Positions 8,557 to 57,564 of a DNA stretch of 64,000 bases are shown piece by piece. Within the stretch, counting starts at the first letter, position 1; each line of letters begins with the position of its first letter. The position numbers and the translations under genes are program-made. The stretch is from Perognathus longimembris pacificus (lineage: Eukaryota; Chordata; Mammalia; Rodentia; Heteromyidae): positions 73,286,575 to 73,350,574 of the forward strand of contig NC_063166.1 of assembly GCF_023159225.1 (NCBI RefSeq), read 5' to 3'. A model generated the notes under the pieces. It saw only the letters and a program-made list of their open reading frames with translations, ran no database searches and was not told the origin of the DNA.

Positions 8557-9125
8557 CTAAAACCCACATATCAGGGAGACCATATGCCGTTTGTCTCTCT
8601 GTTCTTGGCTTGTCTCACTCAGCATGATTTGTTCTAGTTCCATCCATTTTCCAGCGAATGCCATTATTTTGTCCTTTCTAATGGCAGTGTAAAATTCTAT
8701 TGCATATAGGTACCACAGTTTTTGAATCCATTCATCTGTAGTGGAGCTTCTGGGTTGTTTCCATATCTTGACTACTGTGAATAGTGCAATGAACATGATG
8801 TGCAGGCGTCCTTGTCATATCATGGTTCCTGTTGTTCAGGATAGATGCCTACGAGTAGTAAGGCTAGATCATAGGGTATTTCTATGTTTGGTTTTTTGAG
8901 GAAACTCCAGACTTCTTTCCAGAGTGGTTGTACTAGTGGTTTGCATTCCCACCAGCAGTGTAGTAGGGTTCCTCTTTCTCCACATCCCCACCAGCATTTG
9001 TTGTTGTCTGAGTTCAGAATATAGGCCATTCTTACTGGGGTAAAGTGGTATCTCAGTGTTGTTTTTGTTTGCATTTCCTTTATGGCCAGGGATGTTGAGC
9101 ATTTCTTCATGTGTTTCTTTGCCAT
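8557..9125 (-). pseudogene. L1 ORF2 C-terminal remnant
   Basis: Two minus-strand open frames (8820-9125 and 8557-8796) are consecutive pieces of the ORF2 C-terminal domain, split by a frameshift or stop near 8800. They include the cysteine-rich '[18 protein letters not shown]' block and end in 'MVSLICGF' before the stop at 8557. Reverse transcriptase and endonuclease domains are absent because of 5' truncation, so it cannot be functional. Confidence 0.9.
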
Positions 9126-16651: not shown

Positions 16652-16736
16652 TAGTCTCTCAGACATAACACCAAAAGAATAAACAACAAAGGGAGAAAAA
16701 AAATCAGACTTCATCAAACTTAAAAATGTGTGCGTT

Positions 16737-16947
16737 GGGGCTGGGGATATAGCCTAGTGGCAAGAGTGCCTGCCTCAGATACACGAGGCCCTAGGTTCGA
16801 TTCCCCAGCACCACATATACAGAAAAAATGGCCAGAAGCGGCGCTGTGGCTCAAGTGGCAGAGTGCTAGCCTTGAGCGGGAAGAAGCCAGGGACAGTGCT
16901 CAGGCCCTGAGTCCAAGGCCCAGGACTGGCCAAAAAAAAAAAAAAAA
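16737..16947 (+). mobile_element. IDL-Geo SINE, young subfamily
   Basis: A full-length copy with the 'cggcgctgtgg' and 'gagcgggaagaagcc'-type states, a long A tail and a perfect TSD 'aaaaatgtgtgcgtt' (16722-16736 and 16948-16962). Confidence 0.96.
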
Positions 16948-16962
16948 AAAAATGTGTGCGTT

Positions 16963-17062
16963 GGGGCTGGGAATGTGGCTTAGTGGTAGAGTGCTTGCCT
17001 AGCATGCATGAAGCCTGGGTTTGATTCCTCAGTACCACATTTAAAAAAACAAACAAACAAAT
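16963..17062 (+). mobile_element. Monomeric ID-like SINE
   Basis: It is a single ID unit ('gtggcttagtggtagagtgc', 'gcctgggtttgattcc') with an A/CAA tail. The downstream flank 'aaaaatctgtgcatcc' is a diverged copy of the upstream flank, so it probably has its own old TSD. Confidence 0.85.
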
Positions 17063-17079
17063 AAAAATCTGTGCATCCC

Positions 17080-17584
17080 AGGTTTAGGCAAGTCACAGCA
17101 GAGGATCACAGGAGCCCAATAGCTATACCCTTATGAACACATAAGATGATGCTAAGTGAAATGAACTCCATGTTATGGAAACGAATGTTATATCACTGTT
17201 GTAACTATTTTCAATGTGCTATGTGTAACCGTAGCTTCTATTATTGATGATCTTTTTGTATCCCCTTCCTGTGGTGTACCTGCACTATCTCTGTATCTTA
17301 TCTGTGTACATTGGAAACCGTGTATACTGGTATTAGAACTAGGAAATGAAAGAGAATACCAAAATCGAGAGACACAGGGTAAAAAAGACAAACTACTACA
17401 AAAGCAATACTTGCAAAACTGTTTGGTGTAAATGAACTGAACAACTCATGGGGGGAAAGGGAAAGGAGGAGAGGGGAGAGGGGAATGAGGGAGGAGGTAA
17501 CAAACAATACAAGAAATGTATCCAATACCTAATGTATGAAACTGTAACCTCTCTGCACATCAGTTTGACAATAAAAATTTAAAA
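17080..17584 (+). mobile_element. Younger L1 3' UTR fragment with TSD
   Basis: Sequence matches the reverse complement of the 54.7-55.3 kb L1 segment. It contains the G-rich polypurine tract (17450-17500) and ends 'tttgacaataaaaattt' plus A run. The TSD 'aaaaatctgtgcatcc' lies at 17063-17078 and 17585-17600. Confidence 0.9.
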
Positions 17585-17973
17585 AAAAATCTGTGCATCC
17601 AACAACACTTTCAAGAAAATAAAAAGATGATGCCATTGTTTCTGTTACCCATAATGCATAAACAAAACATTAATAAAAATGAGTCTTCTTCAATATAAAA
17701 ATGAAAGTAAAAAGGCAACCCACAAGGATAGGAGAAAATCTTTGTAAATAATATAGTTGATAAGAGGCTTCAAAGTAGTCTCTGTATAGAACTTTTATAT
17801 AACTTGACAGAAAAAGACAAATAACTCAATTTTAAAATAGGCAAAGGTTTTGAATAAGCATTTCTCTGATACATACAAATAACCAATAAGCAAATGATGT
17901 CACCGTCATTAGTCAGTAAGGAAATGTCAATCAAAACACAATGAGAAACAGCTCTCTCTCTCACACACACACA

Positions 17974-42444: not shown

Positions 42445-43335
42445 TTATTTTTAAAAATGTTGTCTTTGTTGAAAAGGTAATGATCTGGGGGTATAGTTAC
42501 ATAAGGAAGGTAATGATTACATTTGGGGTTTTTTTGTTATTTTATTTTCCATTTCTTTATTGTTAAAGTGAAGTACAGAGGGGTTATAGTTTCATACGTA
42601 AGGCACTGAGTACATTTCTTATCCAACTTGTTACCTTCTCCCTCATTTTCCCCCACCTTCCCGCCTTCCCCCCTTCCCCGTCCCACCCCCTCCATGAGTT
42701 GTGCAGTTGGTTTATACTGTATCGTTTTGTAAGTATTGCAGTTGCATTGGTTTGTGTGTGTATATATATATATATATATATTATCAAACTGAATTACAGA
42801 GAGGTTACAGTTTCATACATTAGGCATTGGATACATTTCTTGTACTGTTTGTTACCTTGTCCCTCATTCCCCCTTCCCCCCTCCCCCCTCCCCCTTTCCC
42901 TTCCCCCCACCATGAGTTGTTCAGTTGTTCAGTTCATTTTCACCAAACAGTTTGTAAGTATTGCTTTTGTAGTTGTTTGTCTTTTTTTACCCTGTGTCTC
43001 TCGATTTTGGTATTCCCTTCCAATTTTGGTTTGTCTTTTTATCCTTTGCCTCTCGATTGTGATATCCCCTTCCCTTCCCTAGTTCCAATACATGTATTCC
43101 CATGGTTTTACCCCTGATATCACTATAACTGATTTTGGTACCTTGGGTATTGTATACACATTTGTTTTTAAACAATGCTACCCCCATCCTTCATTTTCTC
43201 CCACTTACCCCTCCCTACGCCCCCTGCCCAAGTTATACGGTTGATTCCAACCTATTGTTAAGTGACTATCGTTGTATTAGTTTGTCCTTTGACCTGCTGT
43301 TTCTGTGATTCCCTTTCCCTTCCCCTGGTCAAAGG
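42445..43335 (-). mobile_element. Stacked L1 3' UTR units
   Basis: The 3' UTR start (antisense 'attgttaaagtgaagtacag', 'ttatagtttcatacgtaagg') recurs at about 42455, 42553 and 42780. Pyrimidine-rich blocks (the L1 polypurine tract) follow at 42640-42690 and 42870-42910. A (TA)n lies at 42765-42781. No ORF2 is seen. The stack may be successive insertions into A tails or duplicated modules. Confidence 0.8.
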
Positions 43336-52071: not shown

Positions 52072-52278
52072 GGGGCTGGGGATATAGCCTAGTGGCAAGA
52101 GTGCCTGCCTCGGATACACGAGGCCCTAGGTTCGATTCCCCAGCACCACATATACAGAAAACGGCCAGAAGCGGCGCTGTGGCTCAAGTGGCAGAGTGCT
52201 AGCCTTGAGCGGGAAGAAGCCAGGGACGGTGCTCGGGCCCTGAGTCCAAGGCCCAGGACTGGCCAAAAAAAAAAAAAA
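52072..52278 (+). mobile_element. IDL-Geo SINE, young subfamily
   Basis: Full copy with the young states and an A tail; 'aaaatacatctcc' flanks both ends. Confidence 0.96.
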
Positions 52279-53150: not shown

Positions 53151-53335
53151 GGGCTGGGAATATGGCCTAGTGGTCAAGTGCTTGCCTCGTATATATGAAG
53201 CCCTAGGTTTGATTCCAGAAGTGGCACTGTGGCTCAAGTAGTAGAGTGCTATCCTTGAGCAAAAAGAAGCCAGGGACAGTACTCAGGCCCTGAGTTCAAG
53301 TCCCAGGACTGGCAAAAAAAATAAAACAAAATAAA
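53151..53335 (+). mobile_element. IDL-Geo SINE with deletion and TSD
   Basis: The junction between left unit and Geo is deleted ('gtttgattccagaagtgg'). TSD 'aagaagttttgatga' (53136-53150) and 'aagaagctttgatga' (53336-53350). Confidence 0.93.
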
Positions 53336-54610: not shown

Positions 54611-55722
54611 GCAACTCAGCTGGGCCCCTGTGGCTCATGCCTATAATCCTAGATACTCAGGAAGCTGAGATCTGAGGATCATGGTTCAAAGCCAACCTGT
54701 GCAAAAAAAAAAAAAAAGTCCCTATGATACTCTTTTTTTTGTAATTTTATTTGTTACACCCTCCCTCATAAGTAAAAGATTTTTTTTTCTTATTTATTGT
54801 CAAAGTGATGTACAGAGAGGTTACAGTTTCATACGTTAGGCCTTGGGTACATTTCTGGTACTGTTTGTTACCTCCTCTTTCATTCCCCCCTCCTCCTTTC
54901 CCTCTCCCCCAATGAGTTGTTCAGTTGGTTTACACCAAATGGTTTTGCAAGTATTGCTTTTGGAGTCATTTGTCTTTTTATCCTTTGTCTCTTGATTTTG
55001 ATATTCCCTTTCATTTCCCTAGTTCTAATACCAGTATATACAGTATCCAATGTACTTAGATGAGATACAGTGATAGTGCAGGTACAACCACAGGAAGGGG
55101 ATACAAGAGGATAATCAACAATAGAAGCTACGGTTTCACATGGTATGTTGAAAGTGATTACAACAGTGATATAACAGTTGTTTCCATAACATAGAGTTCA
55201 TTTCACTTAGCATCATCTTATGCATTCATAAGGGCACAGCTATTAGGCTCTTGTGATCCTCTGCTGTGACTAGCCTAAATCTGTGCTAATTATTCCCTAT
55301 GAGGGAGACCATAGAGTCCATGTTTCTTTGAATCTGGCTCACTTCACTTAGTATAATTTTTTTCCAATTCCTTCCATTTCCTTATGAATGGGGCAATGTC
55401 ATTCTTTTGATAGAGGCATAATATTCCATTGTGTACATGTACCACATTTTCCTGATCCACTCATCTACTGAGGGGCATCTGGGTTGGTTCCATATTTTTA
55501 TATGTGGTGCTGGGGAATCGAACCCAGGGCTTCATGTATACGAGGCAAGCACTCTTGCCACTAGGCCATATTCCCAGCCCCCCATGATACTTTTATCTCC
55601 AATTAACCCCCAGAAAATCAGAAGTGGCACTGTGGCTCAAAGTACTAGCCTTGAGTAAAAAAGCTCAGAGACAGTGTCCAAGGCCCTGATTTAAAGCCCA
55701 CCAACAACAACCAAAAAAAATT
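54611..55722 (+). mobile_element. B1-Geo SINE split by an insertion
   Basis: The left piece (54611-54734) ends in the linker region and the right piece (55581-55722) resumes at 'ttttatctccaattaac' and runs through Geo. The insertion lies between 54735 and 55580. Confidence 0.9.
54735..55580 (-). mobile_element. Chimeric insertion: IDL unit fused to truncated L1
   Basis: Read on the minus strand, it begins with a complete IDL left monomer (55580 down to about 55498: 'ggggctgggaatatgg' to the CACCACATATA end). It passes without tail or TSD into L1 ORF2 3' end, then L1 3' UTR and A tail (T run at 54735). 'cctatgatactctt' (54721-54734) and 'cccatgatactttt' (55581-55594) flank the whole. The Geo half is absent. 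Confidence 0.75.
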
Positions 55723-57339: not shown

Positions 57340-57354
57340 AAAGCAAAGACACAG

Positions 57355-57564
57355 GCTGGGGATATAGCCTAGTGGCAACAGTGCCTGCCTCGGACACACG
57401 AGGCCCTAGGTTCGATTCCCCAGCACCACATATACAGAAAACGGCCAGAAGCGGCGCTGTGGCTCAAGTGGCAGAGTGCTAGCCTTGAGCAGGAAGAAGC
57501 CAGGGACAGTGCTCAGGCCCTGAGTCCAAGGCCCAGGACTGGCCAAAAAAAAAAAAAAAAGAAA
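57355..57564 (+). mobile_element. IDL-Geo SINE, young subfamily
   Basis: Full copy; TSD 'gaaagcaaagacaca' at 57340-57354 and 57565-57579. Confidence 0.96.

Follow-up and report, generated by a model that had tools for sequence, protein, structure and literature searches.

A probable single L1-mediated insertion of an IDL monomer joined to a truncated L1 in a B1-Geo SINE of Perognathus longimembris pacificus

An intriguing question raised by this locus is by what history half of a dimeric SINE came to be joined, with nothing between, to the 3' part of an L1. On the minus strand of the window (the whole 64,000-nucleotide stretch analysed here), an intact IDL left monomer passes straight into L1 ORF2 3' sequence of the same sense at about 55498. 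We consider the unit to be, most probably, a dead retrocopy that resulted from one L1-mediated insertion of two joined RNAs, IDL and L1. The names IDL, Geo, IDL-Geo and B1-Geo, in keeping with a first-pass annotation of this DNA, are applied here as putative names for these repeats.

Parts of the unit and their boundaries

The first-pass annotation described an IDL left monomer leading into a truncated L1 on the minus strand, within a B1-Geo SINE, and both this anatomy and its coordinates proved correct when the minus strand was read. The parts, in the order in which that strand runs and followed by the host element, are:

55580 to 55594, minus strand: target-site duplication (TSD), 5' copy, AAAAGTATCATGGGG; the final two G's may be the IDL's
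55499 to 55581, minus strand: IDL (ID-like, tRNA-derived) left monomer, consisting of a tRNA-like part and about seven unpaired linker bases
IDL linker sequence: CACATATA, AU-rich
55498 to 55499, minus strand: joint, ...CACCACATATA/AAAATATGGAACC..., placed to within about 4 bases
54789 to 55498, minus strand: 5'-truncated L1, consisting of the ORF2 C-terminal coding part (two frame changes) and the 3' UTR, ending ...CAATAAATAAG
54780 to 54788, minus strand: first A run (A9), the L1's own tail
54741 to 54779, minus strand: 39-base post-tail segment, with AATAAA 5 bases from its end and including ATGAGGGAGGGTGTAACAAA
54733 to 54740, minus strand: second A run (A8); the last two A's may be part of the 3' duplication
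54720 to 54734, minus strand: target-site duplication, 3' copy, AAGAGTATCATAGGG
54619 to 55719, minus strand: host B1-Geo SINE, antisense, interrupted by the unit; outer ends estimated by eye

In this order and orientation, with the IDL 5' terminus at the edge of the insertion, the two main parts meet directly inside a single outer duplication. The monomer closes with CACCACATATA, and the bases next to it, AAAATATGGAACCAACCC, belong to L1 ORF2. From near the joint, at about AAAATATGGAACC (55498), the L1 side can be aligned with an older L1 at 8769-8569. Five consecutive A's stand at the joint and four of them align to L1; because of this run, the position of the joint is uncertain by about 4 bases. 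No Geo half, A tail or separate duplication is present there, as had been claimed. A short TATA overlap at the joint, also claimed earlier, was not recovered: the sole L1 relative in the window that spans the point reads GTAGTCAAGATATGG, and the bases preceding the match in that relative (8769-8569) are GTAGTCAAG, with no TATA in common. Splicing is thought unlikely as the origin of the joint, although its exclusion is not full. The IDL-Geo linkers that were compared have no GT just after the joint, and the relative at 8769 offers an AG on the L1 side (TCAAG/ATATGG) only if the joint lies about 4 bases later.

RNA folding gave a closed tRNA-like domain for the IDL piece, with its last seven bases unpaired. 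The joint thus falls in an open, AU-rich, single-stranded linker just past this domain, where the enzyme could plausibly have jumped or the RNA have broken; ligation after such a break would fit this position no less well than a jump. Folding stability on the L1 side was not decisive, as 10 of 124 windows of the unit (self included) equalled or exceeded in stability the 60 bases that follow the joint on its 3' side. The one Rfam match over the window is a tRNA at 16969-17037, outside the unit, with none in the unit itself; ARAGORN found no tRNA, and pattern scans of viral contigs (two) returned 0 matches.

The IDL monomer starts at 55581 or 55580 and ends at about 55499, and the Geo half is absent after it. 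When 16 ID and IDL copies in the window were compared with their downstream sequence, 14 IDL copies led into Geo, one ID copy (16964) into an A-rich tail and the copy at 55580 into L1. The copy at 53151, which is one of the 14, has Geo and lacks the monomer end. Four partial matches (32237, 42216, 50835 and 42133) are omitted from this table, and 42216 has Geo after it. No free IDL monomer, without Geo, was seen among the 14 other IDL copies tabulated in the window. Since all 14 carry the Geo half, the earlier suggestion that a left-monomer RNA was the donor is unproven.

At the unit's two ends, AAAAGTATCATGGGG (55594-55580) and AAGAGTATCATAGGG (54734-54720) are identical at 13 of 15 positions. 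The earlier description of one duplication around the whole unit within B1-Geo (14 bp, two mismatches) is upheld, with a length of 13-15 bp and the same two mismatches. Its score was equalled by 6 of 500 random left flanks, and the duplication taken alone is moderately strong evidence. Better evidence for it than the flank score comes from the host element. The flanks joined across the site (with one surplus A kept) align continuously with the 10 other B1-Geo copies aligned, and GTATC, which is present in both duplicates, occurs in 0 of those 10. The insertion edge appears compatible with an L1 endonuclease site, the bottom strand reading CTTTT/AT at the 5' copy and CTCTT at the 3' copy. The host B1-Geo also carries a run of 15 T's (54703-54717, minus strand) that is absent from the 10 other aligned copies.

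No duplication was found around the L1 alone (score equalled by 264 of 500 random flanks) or around the L1 plus the post-tail segment (254 of 500). A 10-base near-match between the upstream flank and the joint, ATAAAAGTAT / ATAAAAATAT, was equalled by 21 of 500 random flanks and counts on the other side; we do not read it as an IDL duplication because it stops 6 bases short of the IDL start and resembles L1 on the side of the joint. Separate insertions of the IDL and the L1, each with its own duplication, were rejected as an origin, as no such duplications lie at the right places.

Reading the L1 coding part in three frames revealed two frame changes, which the first-pass annotation does not mention, and the post-tail segment (54779-54741) with its second A run had been overlooked as well. 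The L1 ends ...CAATAAATAAG plus A9 (54788-54780), after which come 39 bases, A8 and the 3' duplication. A comparison of the upstream flank with the sequence after the first A tail gave a score equalled by 461 of 500, and thus the 39-base segment belongs inside the insertion. As in an L1 3' transduction, extra sequence past the L1 tail is followed by a second A run within the TSD, and the segment's AATAAA lies only 5 bases ahead of that run, which is very close for a polyadenylation signal. Within the segment, ATGAGGGAGGGTGTAACAAA matches the L1 3' UTR at 17485-17504 at 90% of 20 bases. The local-alignment score of the segment against that L1 copy was reached by 0 of 500 shuffles; the corresponding counts for five other L1 targets were 37, 4, 0, 12 and 40 of 500, and for three SINE controls 162, 62 and 101 of 500. 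The full 39 bases match one place in the window, which is the unit itself. The segment may be a 3' transduction; in view of the scores against L1 3' UTRs, it may instead represent another short L1 3' end, or flank in which L1 sequence was already present.

Histories that could have joined the IDL and the L1

The mechanism that we favor is target-primed reverse transcription by the L1 machinery at an A/T-rich site in the B1-Geo SINE. The L1 enzyme would have begun at the A-tailed 3' terminus of an L1 RNA reaching beyond the L1's own tail. After copying some 710 bases of L1, it would have gone on along an IDL-type SINE RNA as far as the 5' end of that RNA, and the product would have been inserted with one target duplication of 13-15 bp. 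Arrival of the IDL and the L1 together is suggested by the direct same-sense joint, the single outer TSD, the B1-Geo that closes around the unit and the lack of a duplication around the L1 alone. The possibly unequal ages of the parts and the missing Geo half argue against it. The chimeric retrotranscript of the first-pass annotation stands in so far as a single co-insertion of SINE and L1 is the best fit; its template switching, on the other hand, is not separable from prior RNA ligation. If the two parts did arrive together, template switching during reverse transcription is somewhat the likelier way for them to have been joined, with prior ligation of the RNAs a strong second candidate.

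Sequential nesting would be expected to look different, as a second locus in the window illustrates. There, an ID copy at 16964 precedes an L1 at 17079-17589; the two are joined through an A-rich tail, and TCTGTGCATCC flanks the L1 at either end. An A tail and a separate L1 duplication are the expected mark of ordinary nesting of an L1 with a SINE, and the chimera locus has neither. The pair at 16964-17600 was itself tried as another chimera and rejected on account of this tail and the repeats around its L1.

A history with two steps, the strongest rival of this reading, would nevertheless leave the same outer duplication, and therefore the single TSD, on which the first-pass annotation relied and which is itself confirmed, does not decide between one event and two. 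An IDL-Geo would have inserted first, generating the outer TSD, and an L1 primed later in its A tail would have deleted the Geo half. The L1 5' end would have been joined at the left-monomer end, with about 115 bases (by eye) and the tail lost and no target duplicated. This history predicts the A run ahead of the 3' copy and the absence of an internal duplication, and it explains why the Geo half, carried by all 14 other tabulated IDL copies, is missing here. The window does contain, at 16964-17600, an L1 lodged in the tail of a SINE. In HeLa cells, deletions at the target occur with 5'-truncated L1 insertions (PMC2912911), insertion-mediated deletions have been called in genome comparisons (PMC3024322), and Doucet et al. 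give a second insertion into the 3' end of a first as an alternative for tripartite chimeras (PMC4476161). We nonetheless regard two steps as unlikely, since they need two events and a deletion that ended a few bases from the monomer boundary, and since the rest of the unit looks older than the IDL, the reverse of what they require.

The apparent youth of the IDL comes from comparison with three copies in the window (25386, 40090 and 1729) that are presumed to form its subfamily. The IDL piece has 0 changes in 82 bases from the point at which these copies join; they differ from it at 3, 5 and 6 bases and among themselves at 8, 9 and 11. Had the piece aged like the three copies (mean 4.67), the chance of 0 changes would be about 0.009. 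The duplicates differ at 2 of 15 positions, and the placement of both changes in the 30 TSD sites with none in the IDL has p of about 0.07. In the 226 L1 3'-UTR columns that could be compared between the unit and the copies at 17079 and 43025, the unit stands alone in 18, copy 17079 in 6 and copy 43025 in 20; set against a fourth copy, at 42763, the unit's 18 comprise 6 derived-looking, 6 ancestral-looking and 6 unplaceable columns. The parts may be of unequal age, with the IDL looking young and the L1 less so, because 0 of 82 IDL bases are changed while the L1 has its frame changes and 3'-UTR changes and the TSD its mismatches. The mismatch in age may be a matter of luck, the L1 RNA that served as template may have been defective, or the parts may have had two histories. 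The age data do not favor an IDL that predates the L1, as the two-step history would require.

Other histories would involve more than two RNAs or an earlier fusion. It is possible, if improbable, that the product is tripartite or is one copy of a composite IDL-L1 element mobile in geomyoid rodents. In the tripartite version, synthesis may have started on a short L1 3' end (the 39-base segment, in part L1-like, and A8), jumped to the A tail of a second, defective L1 RNA and then passed to the IDL RNA; in the composite version, an IDL-L1 with its own Pol III promoter may move as a unit. We think it very improbable that the IDL-L1 fusion pre-existed at a source locus, was transcribed, by 5' transduction or from the Pol III promoter that the IDL itself carries, through the truncated L1 and its flank, and was then retroposed as a unit. 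Such an origin would account for a copy with the IDL 5' end as its start and a second A run, beyond the L1 tail, as its end, and the L1 frame changes suggest that a copy already dead may have served as template. It merely shifts the joint back one generation, however, and no second copy of the joint sequence occurs within the window. Moreover, Pol III is expected to stop at a T4 run, and one stands at the start of the post-tail segment. In favor of such an origin, PMC3024322 explains the L1 cases with repeats upstream that it describes by 5' flank transduction or insertion in preference to template switching. Chance, rearrangement after insertion or an assembly error is hardly to be credited, given that a duplication lies at both boundaries and that B1-Geo closes around the unit, although the outer duplication taken by itself is no more than moderately unusual when set against random flanks (6 of 500) and the joint is known from one assembly.

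Relation to published chimeras and to other repeats

The insertion that we favor, of an IDL and an L1 together, is of a known kind, since Alu/L1, tRNA/L1 and B2-U6-L1 chimeras have been published, B2 being tRNA-derived; IDL was not found described as a partner. The literature searched (titles and abstract openings, with most subscription journals outside it) held no description of an IDL/L1 chimera and no occurrence of the term "IDL-Geo"; geomyoid and beaver retroposons are the subject of PMC5335264. In human, 452 Alu/L1 chimeras, most of them same-sense with a truncated L1, and 21 tRNA/L1 chimeric loci have been reported (PMC13174262, Law and Burns 2026). As an alignment criterion for a chimeric insertion, that work uses the joint presence or joint absence of the two parts in different species. 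Same-sense chimeras are ascribed by these authors to template switching or RNA ligation (PMC13174262), whereas template switching is held unlikely for L1 in PMC3024322, given low processivity. Two B2-U6-L1 chimeras with the SINE at the 5' end are known from mouse (PMC2104539), and in the geomyoid Dipodomys ordii a retrotransposon is associated with 12 of the 18 U6 copies analysed, its kind not being given in the table (PMC4476161 Table 2).

The features of LINE chimeras listed in PMC2104539 are (i) a full-length 5' RNA, (ii) a 5'-truncated 3' part, (iii) random truncation sites, (iv) a direct same-sense joint and (v) flanking repeats. The unit shares three of the five, namely the 5'-truncated LINE 3' part, the direct same-sense joint and the flanking repeats. 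With respect to the full-length 5' RNA, its left monomer is complete, but the Geo half of the expected IDL-Geo RNA is absent. Full-length 5' partners are the rule in that list (PMC2104539), for U6 and for most Alu, while U3, 5S and tRNA partners are often truncated (PMC13174262).

Like Alu/L1 chimeras (PMC13174262), the unit has a SINE 5' of the L1, in the same sense, with one TSD around both; unlike them, its SINE is a tRNA-derived rodent element represented by the left monomer only, where most Alu are full length, and here co-arrival is inferred. It resembles tRNA/L1 chimeras (PMC13174262) in that a tRNA-like RNA adjoins the L1, but those typically contain tRNA halves, mostly antisense, whereas the unit has a whole tRNA-like domain in sense orientation. 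The direct joint, same orientation and flanking repeats are common to the unit, U6/L1 chimeras and the bipartite and tripartite retrogenes (PMC2104539, PMC4476161), from which it differs in having no U6 and, as 5' partner, half of a dimeric SINE. An L1 insertion with a target-site deletion inside a SINE (PMC2912911, PMC3024322) could leave the same anatomy and needs a pre-existing IDL-Geo.

As a single dead copy, the unit alone changes little. If it is confirmed by orthologues, SINE/L1 chimeras would extend beyond primate Alu and mouse B2-U6-L1 to a geomyoid SINE that is dimeric and tRNA-derived, and a joint just past a tRNA-like fold would bear on the choice between template switching and RNA breakage with ligation as the origin of L1 chimeras.

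The window contains further repeats with joined or nested parts. At 16727-17600, an IDL-Geo flanked by TGTGTGCGTTG on both sides adjoins an ID-type copy, which Rfam matches as a tRNA (16969-17037), and an L1 3' end with its own duplication lies in the A-rich tail of that ID. Two L1 3'-UTR ends stand in tandem on the minus strand at 42539-43025, the second beginning in mid-UTR. Five IDL-Geo copies (7710-7629, 16738-16831, 50807-50727, 52073-52154 and 57353-57434) differ from one another at 1-5 of 82 monomer bases, and apparently represent a recently active subfamily that is distinct from that of the chimera.
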